Shown here: in pieces, positions 18,673 through 36,745 of the stretch
Layout: the number at the start of each line of letters is the position of its first letter
Numbering within the stretch: position 1 is the first letter of the stretch
From: an uncultured Ectothiorhodospiraceae bacterium
GTDB lineage: Bacteria > Pseudomonadota > Gammaproteobacteria > S012-40
Direction: 5' to 3'
Assembly (NCBI GenBank): GCA_945787715.1
Contig: CALZJE010000029.1
Location: 1 to 39,096, forward strand
Length of the DNA stretch: 39,096 nt
Program-made: the position numbers and the translations under genes
The notes under the pieces: generated by a model
Seen by the model: the letters and a program-made list of their open reading frames with translations, nothing else
What the model was told of the DNA's origin: nothing
The model's database searches: none

Positions 18673-21516
18673 ATGACTGTATGTCGTCGTCCCAATTCGT
18701 TTCGGGGAATATTTTCCTGCTCATTGAGGCACACTTTTTTTATTTTTTTACTTGGGTTATTCGTAACTTCATGCGGAGGGGGAGGGGACTCAAAGACACC
18801 TCCTAATGATAACTCCAACAAGAAAGAATTTGTGATCAATTCAGATGGGCAAACTATTGAATATGTTTTGCCTGACAATGCACGTGTCAAGGCAACTTTG
18901 GAGATTCCTGCTGGTGCCGTTCCGGATGGAACGATCATTTCTATTAATCCTGCCGACAATTATCCGCCAAACTCGAAGGTGATTCCAGGCGCAGTATTTG
19001 ATTTTGGCCCGGATGGTCTAGTATTTGGCTCACCAGCTAAACTCACAATATGGTACGACCCTAGTGAAATGTCTACACCGGAAAGTCACTTGGGAATTTA
19101 CAAGATGACTGGGGATAAATGGGAAGAAATTGATAGTATCGTTGATACTAATAGTCACACAGTTACTGCCATGATTGGAGGCCTTAGTCTTGGCGCATTA
19201 GGCATAGAATCTGTACCACCTACTACAGTAGCTTCACCAGAAAACAGGAGCTTTAATTCAAATACTAATTTAGAGGTTACTCTGATATGCAGTGACCAGC
19301 CTGGCAGCGGATGTGATAAAACCTACTACACAATGGACGGAAGCGATCCGACAAGTTCTTCAAGCGTTTACTCCGGGAAGATATTAATAGAGAACGATAC
19401 CACCCTTAAATTTTTCTCAGTGGATACCATCGGTAACGTTGAGGCCATACAAACTGAAAGTTATGTCAGTATTCCTGTGTTCACGATTGGTGGCACAGTG
19501 AGCGGGCTTAATGGCACTCTGATACTGCAAAATGATAACGGAGATGATGTAACCGTTACGACCAATAGTTCTTTTACCTTTGCTACGAGCATTGCTGATG
19601 GGTCAGAGTATACAGTGACAATTCTCAGCAAACAGGCGCAACAAATATGTGATGTCTTCAACCATCAAGGTACAATCAACGGACAGAACGTGACGGATAT
19701 ATCAGTAGTCTGTTCAGACATACCAGCAGGGACATTCACAGTAGGTGGTGAGGTGAATGGCCTCAAAGGTACACTGGTTTTACAAAATAATGGTGGGGAT
19801 GATGAGATCCTTGTTACAAACGGCCCTTTTACCTTTAATACTTCTATTGACGAGAACGCACAATATGATATTACAATCTTGAGCAAGCCGGTTGATCGAG
19901 AATGCTCTGTTAGCAATGGCAGAGGTGTGATCAGTGGCCTAAATGTAACTGACGTCGCACTAAATTGTATTCCAATTTGGGCACATCCTGATGATATTAA
20001 CGATTATATCAATCCAAATGCTGGGGAAGAGGTTGAGAGTGTGCATAATTCTCCAAAGGTCGCAATGGATGATAACGGTAATATAATTGTTGTGTGGATT
20101 GGTGATTCCTGCTCAGAATCAAACTGTCGTCAGGTATATATGATCGAATATCGAAACGAAAGTTGGACACAGGTTGATAATCTATCTGACAACATCAGCC
20201 CAGACGGTTTCACTGCATCATCACCACAAGTTGCGATGAGTAACGACGGCACTGCAATTATCGTTTGGGAACAGTTAACCACTGCGCAATTCGGCAGCTG
20301 TGGTACTTTCGGCACTCAGTGTAGCCATATTTACATGAGCGAATACCGTAATGGCACGTGGAAACATCCTCAGGGTAATACTGACTATATAAATCAACCC
20401 GCCGATATTTCAGTTAACAGTGCTGCCCATGCTCCGCAGGTTGTGATGGACGATAGCGGTAACGCAATTATAGTCTGGTACCAGAAAAGGCCAGATGGCT
20501 GGGGGGTTTACAAGAGCGAATATCGTAGCGGAAGTTGGACACATCCGACCATAAATGAGTACATAAATCCCAAAATCTCTGGCAATAATGCCATAAATCC
20601 AAGTGTTGCAATGGATAATAATGGCAATGCCTTAATTGTTTGGCAGGCCAATGACTTGTCAACTACTTGCAGTGGAAGCAGCCCGTGTAATCGGCTGTAT
20701 ATTAGTGAATATCGAGACAGTAAATGGACGCATCCTGATGATGTGACCTCAGGCTATATAAATCCTGTCGGACAGTATTGCTCAGGAATTAGCTGTATGT
20801 TCGAGGTAGATATAGCGATGGATAATAATGACAATGCCATAATCGTATGGAAGCAACATCTGGGGAATGGCGATAGCGCAAATAATGGGGCAATTTTTAT
20901 GAGCGAATACCGCAATGGGAGCTGGACACACCCCTCAGCTTTAAATGACGCAATTAATCCTGGACTAATGTCCAACAAAGCGCGTTTTCCCCGGGTTGAC
21001 ATGAATGACAACGACAATGCGATTATAGTCTGGCAACAATATGACGGCACTCTTAACTGCAAAGAGAGGATATTTGGCTTGAATGGATATGAGGAGTTTG
21101 CTGTGCCATGCAATCAAACCTACATGAGCGAGACGAGTAGTGGTGGATGGATACACCCAAATGACCTGTCTGAACATATAAGCCCATCTGGCCAAATGGT
21201 GGATTTGATTTCATTTCCGGAAGTAGCAATAAGTAATAATGGAGATGCAGTTATAACTTGGGCTCAAGTGGATGGAAATACAAATTCCACTTGCGTGGAG
21301 GGCAGTGTGAATTTCTGCTCACATATTTTCATGAGCGAAAAGCGCGGAGGGAGCTGGATCCACCCTGAGGATCTTATGGATTATATTAGTCCGACCTATG
21401 AGCCAACGGGTAGCCGTCATCCACAAGTGGCAATTGATAGTAGTGGAAACACAATCATTGCCTGGGATCAGTATAAAGGTATTCAAACCAATATTTATAA
21501 GAGTGATTACAAGTAA
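18673..21516 (+). CDS. Multi-domain surface lipoprotein with eight propeller-like repeats
   Basis: About 947 residues from ATG 18673, preceded by AAGGTGG; a GTG nine bases upstream is less likely. Lipobox FVTSC is followed by a Gly-rich linker. Domains in order: a ZU5-like domain (~residues 45-180; LEIPAGAVPDGT, FDFGPDG), a chitobiase C-terminal-like domain (~185-265; TYYTMDGSDPTSSSS), two ~80-residue repeats beginning TIGG(T/E)V(S/N)GL(N/K)GTL, then eight ~60-75-residue repeats. Each of these last has W-x-H-P-x-x-(I/L), YI(N/S)P, a P-x-V-A-M-(D/S)-x-x-G-(N/D)-A-I-I-(V/T)-W strand and (Y/F)(M/I)SEYR. They look like blades of a beta-propeller. The protein is presumably outer-membrane anchored and exposed, perhaps binding glycans. 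No catalytic residues were recognised. Confidence 0.85.
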   Translation: MTVCRRPNSFRGIFSCSLRHTFFIFLLGLFVTSCGGGGDSKTPPNDNSNKKEFVINSDGQTIEYVLPDNARVKATLEIPAGAVPDGTIISINPADNYPPNSKVIPGAVFDFGPDGLVFGSPAKLTIWYDPSEMSTPESHLGIYKMTGDKWEEIDSIVDTNSHTVTAMIGGLSLGALGIESVPPTTVASPENRSFNSNTNLEVTLICSDQPGSGCDKTYYTMDGSDPTSSSSVYSGKILIENDTTLKFFSVDTIGNVEAIQTESYVSIPVFTIGGTVSGLNGTLILQNDNGDDVTVTTNSSFTFATSIADGSEYTVTILSKQAQQICDVFNHQGTINGQNVTDISVVCSDIPAGTFTVGGEVNGLKGTLVLQNNGGDDEILVTNGPFTFNTSIDENAQYDITILSKPVDRECSVSNGRGVISGLNVTDVALNCIPIWAHPDDINDYINPNAGEEVESVHNSPKVAMDDNGNIIVVWIGDSCSESNCRQVYMIEYRNESWTQVDNLSDNISPDGFTASSPQVAMSNDGTAIIVWEQLTTAQFGSCGTFGTQCSHIYMSEYRNGTWKHPQGNTDYINQPADISVNSAAHAPQVVMDDSGNAIIVWYQKRPDGWGVYKSEYRSGSWTHPTINEYINPKISGNNAINPSVAMDNNGNALIVWQANDLSTTCSGSSPCNRLYISEYRDSKWTHPDDVTSGYINPVGQYCSGISCMFEVDIAMDNNDNAIIVWKQHLGNGDSANNGAIFMSEYRNGSWTHPSALNDAINPGLMSNKARFPRVDMNDNDNAIIVWQQYDGTLNCKERIFGLNGYEEFAVPCNQTYMSETSSGGWIHPNDLSEHISPSGQMVDLISFPEVAISNNGDAVITWAQVDGNTNSTCVEGSVNFCSHIFMSEKRGGSWIHPEDLMDYISPTYEPTGSRHPQVAIDSSGNTIIAWDQYKGIQTNIYKSDYK

Positions 21517-34300: not shown

Positions 34301-35245
34301 TTAAAGCTTTTTATAAATACCAAGCTCAATGGGGTATGGTTTGAGGTACAAGGTGTTTTCGATAAACCGATGCTTGTGCCTTGTGAAATACATATTAAGC
34401 AATATAAGGGGTGCGATTAGTGGAAGTTCACCTATTCGATATTTTTCTGCTGTGTATAGAAGTTGCTGCTTTTCTTCATCAGGCAACTGATTTTTTAAAA
34501 AACCGAACAGGTGTTGAAGAACATTGAAATGTCCACCTCTGGTCGCTGGCTTCTTAAGCGTTGCCATTAACGTATTGATATATTGTTTGGCAATGATTGA
34601 GATATTGTCTCTTGTAATTGCTGCAATCAATCGGCCCAGTTCACGATAGCTTTTTTGACATCTAGACAGCAGAACCATCTTATATTGCATATGGAAATTG
34701 AAAATTTTATATGCTGTTATCCCTGATTTATCCAGTTCATTCCAACGTTGATAGGCGTAAATCCGTTGTATAAAGCTATCTAATAAGACTGGATTTTTTA
34801 GTCGGCCTTCCTCTTCAACAGGCAGTAGCGGGAACAATTGAATCAGTTGCTCGGTGAATAAGCCCATTCCTGTAGGCGAGTCTCTGTTTTCTGTGTAAAC
34901 TTTTACGCGTTCCATTCCACAACTGGGCGAGCCTTTTTTAACCACATAGCCAGATAAGGTTTGTATCCAGGCTTTCTGCTGTACTGTGATTTGTTTTAGC
35001 GGTTCTGTGACGTTGTAGCGATTATCTCTGGTACCGACTGCCTGAATGCCTGCAGTTGATGTGACAAGTCTTATTGGCTCTCTGGGAGTGCTCATGCCGA
35101 TGGCTACTTCCGGACAAAAAGTGCGGAACTCGAAACATTTGCCCATTTCTTCAAGCAGTGTGGCGTCTTTACGATGACCGCCATCAAATCTAACTTTCTC
35201 TCCAGCTAAGCAGGCGCTTAACCCAATAATTAATTGCTTATCCAT
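34301..35245 (-). CDS. DUF523-DUF1722 protein (YbgA-like C-terminal domain)
   Basis: 314 residues from ATG 35245, set by AAGGAG six bases upstream; the frame extends further upstream without support. Residues ~1-145 are DUF523, with conserved cysteines in LSACLAG, FCPEV and KKGSPSCGM, probably metal or cluster ligands. Residues ~180-305 are DUF1722 (YbgA), helical, with the FHMQYKMVLLSR and RGGHFNVLQHLFG motifs. YbgA is encoded beside photolyase in E. coli, and DUF523-DUF1722 fusions occur near photolyase, COG2907, DUF1365 and Cfa genes. Such genes lie 1.5 kb away here, so a role in the same light or oxidative-stress response is likely. The function itself is unknown. Confidence 0.88.
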   Translation of the reverse strand: MDKQLIIGLSACLAGEKVRFDGGHRKDATLLEEMGKCFEFRTFCPEVAIGMSTPREPIRLVTSTAGIQAVGTRDNRYNVTEPLKQITVQQKAWIQTLSGYVVKKGSPSCGMERVKVYTENRDSPTGMGLFTEQLIQLFPLLPVEEEGRLKNPVLLDSFIQRIYAYQRWNELDKSGITAYKIFNFHMQYKMVLLSRCQKSYRELGRLIAAITRDNISIIAKQYINTLMATLKKPATRGGHFNVLQHLFGFLKNQLPDEEKQQLLYTAEKYRIGELPLIAPLILLNMYFTRHKHRFIENTLYLKPYPIELGIYKKL

Positions 35246-35673
35246 AACAGCTCCTTTAACACTCAATAGTGATTGAATACGGCTTTATTCCTGTTTTTGT
35301 ACTGACCTAGCATTTGACTGCGACCATATTAAACTTATACAATACATGTACAAACTTGTAAAGCCTTTATCGGCACATACAACGTGTTTATGAATTTGTG
35401 CGGAATAACTGAACTTGCTTCTAAACAAAACCCAGCATGTAGCTGATTTTCTGGTGGTTGGGTACTGATTTTAAAAACACAGTAACCATCCTTGGTGTTT
35501 GACGCCAACATCCGTGTTGGCGACACTTCAAAATCAGTACCCAACCACCAGAAAATCGTGAATTTGAAACTTTGCTGAGTTGTGTTTAGAGGTATGTAAT
35601 TGAATTAAGGCTCATAGGAATGCCGGCGAAAGATAAGTGCTGATTCGCACTCCCTTTTAAAGAGGAATAAGAC
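35246..35673. other. Intergenic region carrying a nested palindrome
   Basis: About 430 bases. Apart from the palindromic element at 35421-35589, it holds the promoter of the DUF523 gene and the leader of the small ORF/signal peptidase unit. A 69-codon minus-strand ORF crossing the palindrome is not a gene. Confidence 0.55.
35421..35589. repeat. Nested long inverted repeat (MITE-like or cruciform element)
   Basis: Three levels of symmetry. A perfect 28-bp inverted repeat joins 35445-35472 and 35530-35557; each arm contains TGGTGGTTGGGTACTG or its complement. Outside it CTAAACAAAACCCAGCA (35421-35437) matches the reverse complement of 35573-35589 with two differences. Inside, CGCCAACA and TGTTGGCG form an 8-bp hairpin with a 4-base loop near the centre. 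The total length is 169 bp with no ORF of its own. No flanking target duplication was identified. Confidence 0.8.
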
Positions 35674-35802
35674 ATGAATCCCATGATAGAAATGATTATT
35701 TACAGCGTAATTCCGATTGTTTTTATACCCATTGTATTTGCTATCTTGTACTTAACGCGAAATAAAGTTGTACAAAAAAAGGCTGACAAACATCATGACT
35801 AG
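35674..35802 (+). CDS. 42-residue membrane peptide overlapping the signal peptidase gene
   Basis: ATG at 35674 with AGAGGA seven to twelve bases upstream, a good ribosome site. The product has a short N-terminus, a single hydrophobic segment (IIYSVIPIVFIPIVFAILYL, residues ~8-27) and a basic tail (TRNKVVQKKADKHHD), so the tail should face the cytosol. The stop TAG overlaps the ATG of the next gene (ATGACTAG), implying translational coupling with the signal peptidase. The family is not recognised. It may be an accessory subunit, a leader controlling signal peptidase translation, or merely a small membrane protein. Confidence 0.6.
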   Translation: MNPMIEMIIYSVIPIVFIPIVFAILYLTRNKVVQKKADKHHD

Positions 35803-36745
35803 TAAAACTGAGCAAGTTGAAAATCAACTGAACGCTGTCGCTGTCCCAGCAAAATCCAAATGGCTGATAATGACAGGCATTATATGTCCTCCACTGATAT
35901 TGTGGCTTTTAGGTAAGCGTGTTTATGCGGTTGCTAGCCTGGGGTTGATTATTATTAGCTTGATTTTGGCGCAGATTTATTCATCGCTGAATAATTGGCC
36001 GTTTCCGATTTGGACATTCCCATTGCATGTGCTTGTATATCTCGCCACTGCTTATCATGTTTATTTTGCGCTGTTAGAAAATGCTGAGCAATTTAATTCG
36101 AAGCGAATAGTGATCAGTTTCTGGTTCATTATGTTGATCATGTTTGGTGCCTATCAGCTACTTGTCAGTAGCTCGTTTTCTCGTTATGGCATTGCATCTG
36201 TTTCTATGAATCCTACTCTGATTCACGGAGACTATGTGATAAGCAAACAACTAACAAAAGAAAGCCATGGGGAAAGTAATTCGATAGCAGGATTAGGTTA
36301 TGGAGATATTGTGATTTTTGAGCACCCGGAAGGTGATGAGATCCAGGTTAAGCGCATTGTCGCGCTAGCTGGCGATCGAGTCACTTTTAGTGGCGAGAGC
36401 CTTACTATCAATGATGAGAAAATTAAGCGGGAAACGATTAATACCAATAATAGTGGCACCCCTTTCCTCTGGTTAAAGACTGAATTATATTCGGAAAATA
36501 ATCATGGAAAAAAATATTTAATCAGCGTTTCAGGTGAGACTGTTCAGGTAAGTGGTGAAGTAGTAGTGCCACCCGGTCATGTATTTGTAATGGGGGATAA
36601 TCGCAACCAGAGTATCGATAGCCGTTTTTGGGGTGTGTTGCCGGTGGACAATATTTTGGAAAAACCTTTATTGATTTGGTGGAGTGTCAAACCAGGTGTT
36701 CAACCGCTTATTCGGTGGAATAGAATTGGACGCTGGGTTGAATGA
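35795..36745 (+). CDS. Signal peptidase I, multi-span type
   Basis: About 316 residues from ATG 35795; a GTG 27 bases upstream is less likely because this ATG lies in the stop overlap with the 42-residue ORF. Four hydrophobic segments (~24-39, 43-62, 74-93, 107-125) come before the catalytic domain, more than the two of E. coli LepB. Catalytic motifs are clear: box B SMNPT (Ser137), box D VKRIVALAGD (Lys186) and box E GDNRNQSIDSRFWG near residue 285. It cleaves signal peptides on the outer face of the inner membrane. The usual lepB neighbours (lepA, rnc, era) are absent, so it is probably a second, specialised peptidase rather than the housekeeping one. Confidence 0.9.
   Translation: MTSKTEQVENQLNAVAVPAKSKWLIMTGIICPPLILWLLGKRVYAVASLGLIIISLILAQIYSSLNNWPFPIWTFPLHVLVYLATAYHVYFALLENAEQFNSKRIVISFWFIMLIMFGAYQLLVSSSFSRYGIASVSMNPTLIHGDYVISKQLTKESHGESNSIAGLGYGDIVIFEHPEGDEIQVKRIVALAGDRVTFSGESLTINDEKIKRETINTNNSGTPFLWLKTELYSENNHGKKYLISVSGETVQVSGEVVVPPGHVFVMGDNRNQSIDSRFWGVLPVDNILEKPLLIWWSVKPGVQPLIRWNRIGRWVE

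Follow-up and report, generated by a model that had tools for sequence, protein, structure and literature searches.

A palindromic IS1595-type MITE with a probable TwoAYGGAY-type RNA at its apex, a predicted CsrA site

Introduction

Near one end of a contig from an uncultured Ectothiorhodospiraceae bacterium lies a nested palindrome, and the question that it raises is what such a structure is and what, if anything, it carries. The stretch of DNA analysed here (the window; 39,096 nucleotides) is contig 29 of a 4.4-Mb draft genome in 227 contigs, referred to below as G000. An earlier note on this DNA had proposed a non-autonomous mobile element, a cruciform-forming regulatory site or the scar of an integration.

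Anatomy of the palindrome

The perfect 28-bp arms described in the earlier note are exact at 35445-35472 and 35530-35557 (a repeat finder returns 31 nt at 97%), and the inner hairpin with its 8-bp stem is seen in the fold, with an 18-nt match at 35504-35521. Outer arms are also present, but in place of 17 bp with two differences they measure 24-25 bp, at 35414-35437 and 35573-35596, and hold five non-Watson-Crick positions in 25. The unit, formerly put at 169 bp (35421-35589), had been drawn too short, and its true span is 35414-35596, or 183 bp. A second apical hairpin, absent from the earlier description, stands on the minus strand at 35485-35496. The features of the locus are:

34301-35245, minus strand: 2-thiouracil desulfurase + DUF1722 gene (Pfam PF04463, PF08349), context; downstream on the RNA strand
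35406-35413, no strand: left target-site duplication copy, TAACTGAA, matching the right copy at 7/8 positions
35414-35437, plus strand: left terminal inverted repeat of the MITE (arm pairing; 21-base TIR pattern search)
35414-35596, minus strand: complete MITE, 183 bp, IS1595-type (minus is the RNA-sense strand of its core)
35440-35562, minus strand: very probable TwoAYGGAY-type RNA (RF01731, 41.8 bits, gathering score 43, E 1.7e-5)
35445-35472, plus strand: left arm of the perfect 28-bp inner stem (exact match)
35485-35496, minus strand: apical hairpin 2, ACCAAGGATGGT, with an ANGGAN loop (cmscan match and alignment of copies)
35504-35521, minus strand: apical hairpin 1, loop region CACGGATG, ANGGAN (cmscan match and alignment of copies)
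35530-35557, minus strand: right arm of the perfect 28-bp inner stem, the 5' arm of the RNA (compensatory changes among copies)
35573-35596, minus strand: right terminal inverted repeat of the MITE (arm pairing)
35597-35604, no strand: right target-site duplication copy, TAATTGAA (flank comparison)
35795-36745, plus strand: signal peptidase S26 gene (Pfam PF10502), context; divergent from the RNA strand

The reality of the palindrome, nested arms included, is borne out by a fold far above chance: as RNA, positions 35411-35600 fold at -88.5 kcal/mol; 200 dinucleotide shuffles gave -41.1 +/- 4.1 (z = -11.5), and none of them (0/200) was as stable. Five inverted pairs of at least 20 nt occur in the window, and the palindrome is the only one with arms less than 8 kb apart. 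Elsewhere, positions 20052-21470 hold imperfect repeats with a spacing of mostly 170-230 bp, in which a 41-nt unit and a 39-nt unit each occur seven times; they probably represent a repeat protein. An ordinary terminator was rejected as an explanation of the palindrome, the sole terminator-like match being weak; scan counts are near chance for both terminators (1 found, 0.5 expected) and promoters (1 found, 2.2 expected).

Dispersed copies and the IS1595 connection

A whole-genome search with a 190-bp stretch located 12 copies or fragments in G000, that is, 11 beyond the window copy; 38 matches were listed, many of them arm cross-matches or short noise. Full-length or long partial copies lie on contigs C28, C135, C55, C2, C148, C13, C20, C67 and C79, and remnants on C146 and C9. 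Eight of the 12 carry the apical core, two have a decayed core (C67, C79) and two have none (C146, C9). A 21-base pattern for the terminal inverted repeat, allowed up to three mismatches, hit 16 sites in the genome, and its reversed control hit none. These diverged, non-identical copies of the whole element on other contigs rule out an assembly artefact, which the earlier note had named, for the inverted arm, as the refuting outcome. On contig C55, a match to a group II intron domain (RF02005, 57.1 bits; L004:1804-2056) was observed about 120 bp from the copy.

Target-site duplications, which the earlier note had suggested looking for, flank the window copy (8 bp) and most of its relatives. 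An 8-bp duplication matching at 7/8 positions or better was found at eight of the nine testable copies, C13 being the sole exception, against 1/72 mispaired flanks (Fisher p 2e-9), and a scan of flank matches over k peaks clearly at k = 8; copies without a clear terminus (C67, C79, C146) lie outside this count, and C2 and C9 were anchored by hand. The window copy contains no ORF of 80 aa or more within its 183 bp.

The source of the transposition activity is indicated by elements elsewhere that share the termini. A terminal-pattern scan of named genomes yielded 17 stretches, from three MAGs of Gammaproteobacteria and one named Desulfobulbaceae, most of the stretches at contig ends, as expected of repeats. 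One of these, L090 in MAG MC-03, holds an element of 845 bp that agrees with the window element at 23/23 positions of the left terminus and has one mismatch in the right terminus. It encodes a 255-aa transposase of the IS1595 family (PF12762, 4.9e-26; PF12760, 2.9e-15; NF033547, 1.3e-43); no target duplication of its own was found, and it may be internally deleted. A search of the 227-contig G000 draft with this transposase gave no match at E<=1e-10, and a transposase in the same genome is not required for an old, immobile MITE family. Complete MITEs of 140-166 bp with the same termini and other interiors are present in L084, L089, L092 and L096, and that in L096 has a perfect 8-bp duplication. 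The L092 MITE (JAOTSI010000002.1, about 687-826; 140 bp) sits in the MAG named Desulfobulbaceae, which suggests that the vehicle has moved horizontally or that the contig was misbinned.

The palindrome is, almost certainly, an IS1595-type MITE mobilised in trans by a transposase of the IS1595 family, which made an 8-bp target duplication and is now absent from the genome or unassembled. Thus, the non-autonomous mobile element of the earlier note stands, on the strength of dispersed copies, terminal inverted repeats, 8-bp duplications and a terminus matching an IS1595-family insertion sequence, and the scar of an integration found no support. The element is of the same kind as the published MITE derived from ISHwa6 of Haloquadratum walsbyi, for which the accessible text gives 165 bp, seven copies, inverted repeats of 25 bp and direct repeats of 8 bp (PMC3852290): it shares the size class, the inverted repeats of about 25 bp, the 8-bp duplications, the multiple copies and the lack of a transposase gene. 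It differs from the ISHwa6-derived MITE, as far as that text describes it, in its interior, a long stem with covariation that carries a TwoAYGGAY-type RNA at its tip, and the L084, L089, L092 and L096 MITEs, despite their identical type of terminus, likewise have interiors without such a core.

A twin-hairpin RNA at the apex

TwoAYGGAY (RF01731) is a candidate RNA without an assigned function, and the available portions of the papers that treat it do not describe it as mobile (Weinberg 2010, PMC2864571; PMC4333381). At the default threshold Rfam reported no family in the window; when cmscan was run with an E-value threshold, RF01731 was the top match, on the minus strand, 1.2 bits under its gathering score. 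Matches to miRNAs in the low-threshold run were judged to be hairpin noise. Among the sister copies, C148 scores 43.8 bits and passes the cut-off, and C13 (32.6 bits) and C55 (23.7 bits, weak) fall below it. No RF01731 match was obtained for C28, C135, C20 and C2 at E<=5 or E<=10, and these four are joined to the matching copies by alignment, not by Rfam. In the whole-genome RF01731 search of G000, the window copy was not among the matches either.

The loops themselves are well kept. In the window copy they read ACGGAU, which fits AYGGAY, and AAGGAU in the second loop, which does not, and the GGA of hairpin 2 follows that of hairpin 1 by 22 nt. Other copies have AUGGAU and AGGGAU, so that the consensus is ANGGAN rather than AYGGAY. 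GGA is retained at both loops in all eight core copies (in C135, loop 1 is shifted by one base), all four letters occur at the base that precedes it, and six of the eight copies form two strict GGA-loop hairpins.

Mean identity was calculated over six of the eight core-bearing copies, omitting C20 and C2, which have deletions. It is highest in the core (90%), followed by the termini (82%), the stem (54%) and the segment between termini and stem (49%). In the alignment of all eight copies, 19 of 69 pairs show changes on both sides. The covariation score is 0.221, against 0.128 +/- 0.010 in shuffles (0/500 reach 0.221) and 0.014-0.079 with slid partners, controls that are not strict, the copies being related and the structure partly derived from the same sequences. 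The C28 and C135 rows appear misregistered in the stem, an error that in our view would decrease the count, not increase it. An excess of G-U over A-C pairs in the stem (21:11, p 0.11) is not significant and at most suggestive of selection on the RNA strand.

The apex is very probably a TwoAYGGAY-type module, a three-way junction in which two ANGGAN-loop hairpins stand on a long stem, on the minus strand only; confidence is held at this level because the Rfam model reports only four of the eight core-bearing copies. As in the available description of the family, two hairpins whose loops resemble AYGGAY share one stem, and the C148 copy passes the cut-off of the model; what departs from that description is that the module forms the apex of a transposable element and that the loop consensus is relaxed to ANGGAN (PMC2864571).

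Cores of the same type on unrelated termini

The core is found well beyond the window family. With RF01731 at E<=0.01, at least 30 of 369 genomes drawn from the class gave matches, at least 15 of them above the cut-off, with at most seven candidates scored per genome. Eleven matching genomes searched in depth hold 6 to 53 copies each, and wherever copies were aligned or compared the core lies within bounded, dispersed repeats. When 13 genomes of the family were searched with a model of the G000 core (E<=0.1), at least 116 matches were obtained in G003 (150 of 669 candidates scored), 6 in G005 and 15 in G000, and none in the other ten, including G001 of the same genus. G001, which is 80% complete, does have a short pair of window-type termini without a core and, by eye, without a target duplication.

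The vehicles of these cores differ. In G301 the core sits on a MITE of about 232 bp with termini CACTGCTGTCCCGTTAAC, a pattern found at 40 sites in that genome, and with a 9-bp duplication: at k = 9 the mean flank match is 0.61 versus 0.33, and 4/17 copies match at 8/9 or better versus 0/272 mispaired flanks (20 of 53 copies were fetched and 3 skipped). In G003, a member of the same family as G000, loci L239-L272 carry a palindromic repeat that measures about 190 bp between its termini (ATAACTCACAATCGGAGTTCAAA) and has a TwoAYGGAY-type core, and a duplication of 6-7 bp is weakly supported (k = 6, 5/6 or better in 8/23 against a null of 10%; of 116 copies, 34 were retrieved, and 11 of those were set aside because their termini were poor).

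Within G000 itself, the 15 core matches comprise the eight core copies, the decayed C79 and six new ones, of which five belong to a second repeat with different termini and the sixth to a third type. The second repeat, with unrelated termini and a similar twin-hairpin core, was seen at C9:14-93, C10:19550-19625, C101:1899-1978, C67:25176-25245 and C30:38715-38784 (loci L233, L234 and L236-L238), and the third type, at C22:45194-45273 (L235), is a palindrome with other arms and again a similar twin-hairpin core. From G301, G003 and these two further G000 types it follows that similar cores are borne by unrelated ends. A different arrangement was observed in G097, G169, G279 and G372 (e.g., L176, L177, L191), where TwoAYGGAY cores often form divergent inverted pairs a few hundred bases apart, such that either strand would yield one core.

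Orientation relative to neighbouring genes

The earlier note placed the palindrome upstream of a signal-peptidase unit. That is not the relation that counts, because the RNA strand runs in the other direction, towards the 2-thiouracil desulfurase/DUF1722 gene. In G000 the downstream gene is co-directional with the RNA strand in 7/8 core-bearing copies (p 0.07), a tendency that may be due to chance; the truncated or decayed cores of C2, C67 and C79 are antisense to the next gene. The bias was not repeated in six other genomes, where 20 tandem contexts are sense and 21 antisense, with gene orientation taken from a home-made gene caller (elements used/matches: G301, 20/53; G197, 12/12; G251, 18/20; G021, 13/28; G037, 13/14; G157, 5/6). 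A cis-regulatory 5'-leader element was rejected for this reason, and a uniform role in 5' untranslated regions is unlikely. In the same six genomes 24 elements lie between convergent genes and 5 between divergent genes, as expected of tolerated insertions.

Predicted CsrA binding and competing explanations

TwoAYGGAY has been proposed as CsrA-binding by motif matching, in the part of the source available to us (PMC4333381). A survey of loops covered 175 elements in 12 genomes, with G000 represented by two sets. The RNA strand has at least one GGA-loop hairpin in 173 elements and two in 124. An element has on average 1.70 such hairpins on the RNA strand but 0.05 on the other strand and 0.36 after shuffling, 159 of 3,500 shuffled elements have two, and the commonest contexts fit CANGGAYG. 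Because the motif is built into the RNA models with which all elements except the eight copies of the window family were found, the only informative points are the free base before GGA and the contrast between strands. A csrA gene was found in 16/16 element-bearing genomes searched, and it is so common anyway (8/11 other genomes) that its presence carries less weight. G000 has two csrA copies; the second, more divergent one (L080, C204:826-978) was observed on a 4.3-kb contig. Taken together, the motif, the published proposal, the covariation and the presence of csrA argue that CsrA probably binds the minus-strand loops, and a physiological effect of these candidate sites is less probable than binding itself.

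The CsrB/CsrC and RsmX/Y/Z sponges are single sRNA genes with many sites. The window element resembles them, on the part of the literature available, in having GGA in hairpin loops and paired sites (PMC4333381), and it differs from them as a two-site module spread by transposition.

The most serious rival is a plain selfish MITE, in which the TwoAYGGAY-like apex is inert cargo of the founder and looks alike among copies only because they are recent. It accounts for the target duplications and dispersed copies, for the two decayed cores and two coreless copies, and for the indifference of the RNA strand to gene strand in other genomes. It also suits the result of running the core model on loci with the same termini: no core was found in any of those covered, namely seven of the 17 stretches, the autonomous L090 among them, and L099 of G001. 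Against it, the core is better conserved than the transposase-bound termini even though the stem has drifted with compensatory changes, and the reappearance of this core type on elements that have unrelated termini and a different duplication length is not a prediction of pure hitch-hiking. Inert cargo is therefore regarded as rather unlikely. The reading preferred here, an IS1595-type MITE whose TwoAYGGAY apex is a predicted CsrA site, is considered fairly probable. The core copies that the Rfam model does not report make this reading slightly less, and inert cargo slightly more, probable.

A DNA cruciform or single-strand hairpin, serving the transposition machinery or replication, would place the conservation in the DNA structure. 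The stem of the window copy has 0/28 mismatches where the termini of the same copy have 5/25 (p 0.02, post hoc), a contrast that quasi-palindrome correction could produce; the conserved loops, by contrast, are strand-specific, with NGGA on one strand, and are common to vehicles whose transposases are probably different, given their different termini and the other duplication length of G301. This explanation is improbable, and the cruciform-forming regulatory site of the earlier note is not supported as stated, the apex being a strand-specific RNA motif of the minus strand. A stand-alone CsrA sponge gene of the CsrB/RsmY type, duplicated by chance, would explain the paired GGA-loop hairpins but is very improbable, since the termini and 8-bp duplications show transposition, there are only two sites, and promoter and terminator scans are near chance.

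On the CsrA reading of the MITE, the proposed mechanism would run as follows. An IS1595-family transposase would move the MITE in trans, leaving an 8-bp target duplication, and read-through transcription would yield the minus strand and expose two loops 22 nt apart. A CsrA/RsmA dimer would most likely bind both loops. Each insertion would then add a CsrA site to the transcript around it, and many copies together could act as decoy CsrA sites.

Significance

ERIC, Correia/NEMIS and similar repeats are short, imperfect, intergenic palindromes that are dispersed and transcribed as hairpins in mRNAs. The window element is likewise a dispersed palindromic repeat, with no shared sequence claimed, and we know of no CsrA-type twin loops in those repeats. 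The RNA family and the CsrA idea are already in print. In the literature searched, which covered few subscription journals, no paper was found that joins TwoAYGGAY or CsrA sites with MITEs.

Put more broadly, and tentatively, a twin-hairpin CsrA-binding module may repeatedly have been taken up at the apex of palindromic MITEs whose termini and transposases are unrelated, and been amplified to tens of copies, or in one genome to more than 100, as mobile CsrA decoys whose transposition would rewire or titrate the CsrA network. The MITE would be a genomic vehicle for the orphan TwoAYGGAY family and would explain its many copies. The findings suggest that a global post-transcriptional regulator can have its binding sites disseminated by transposable elements, which would be the RNA counterpart of transposons that spread transcription-factor sites.
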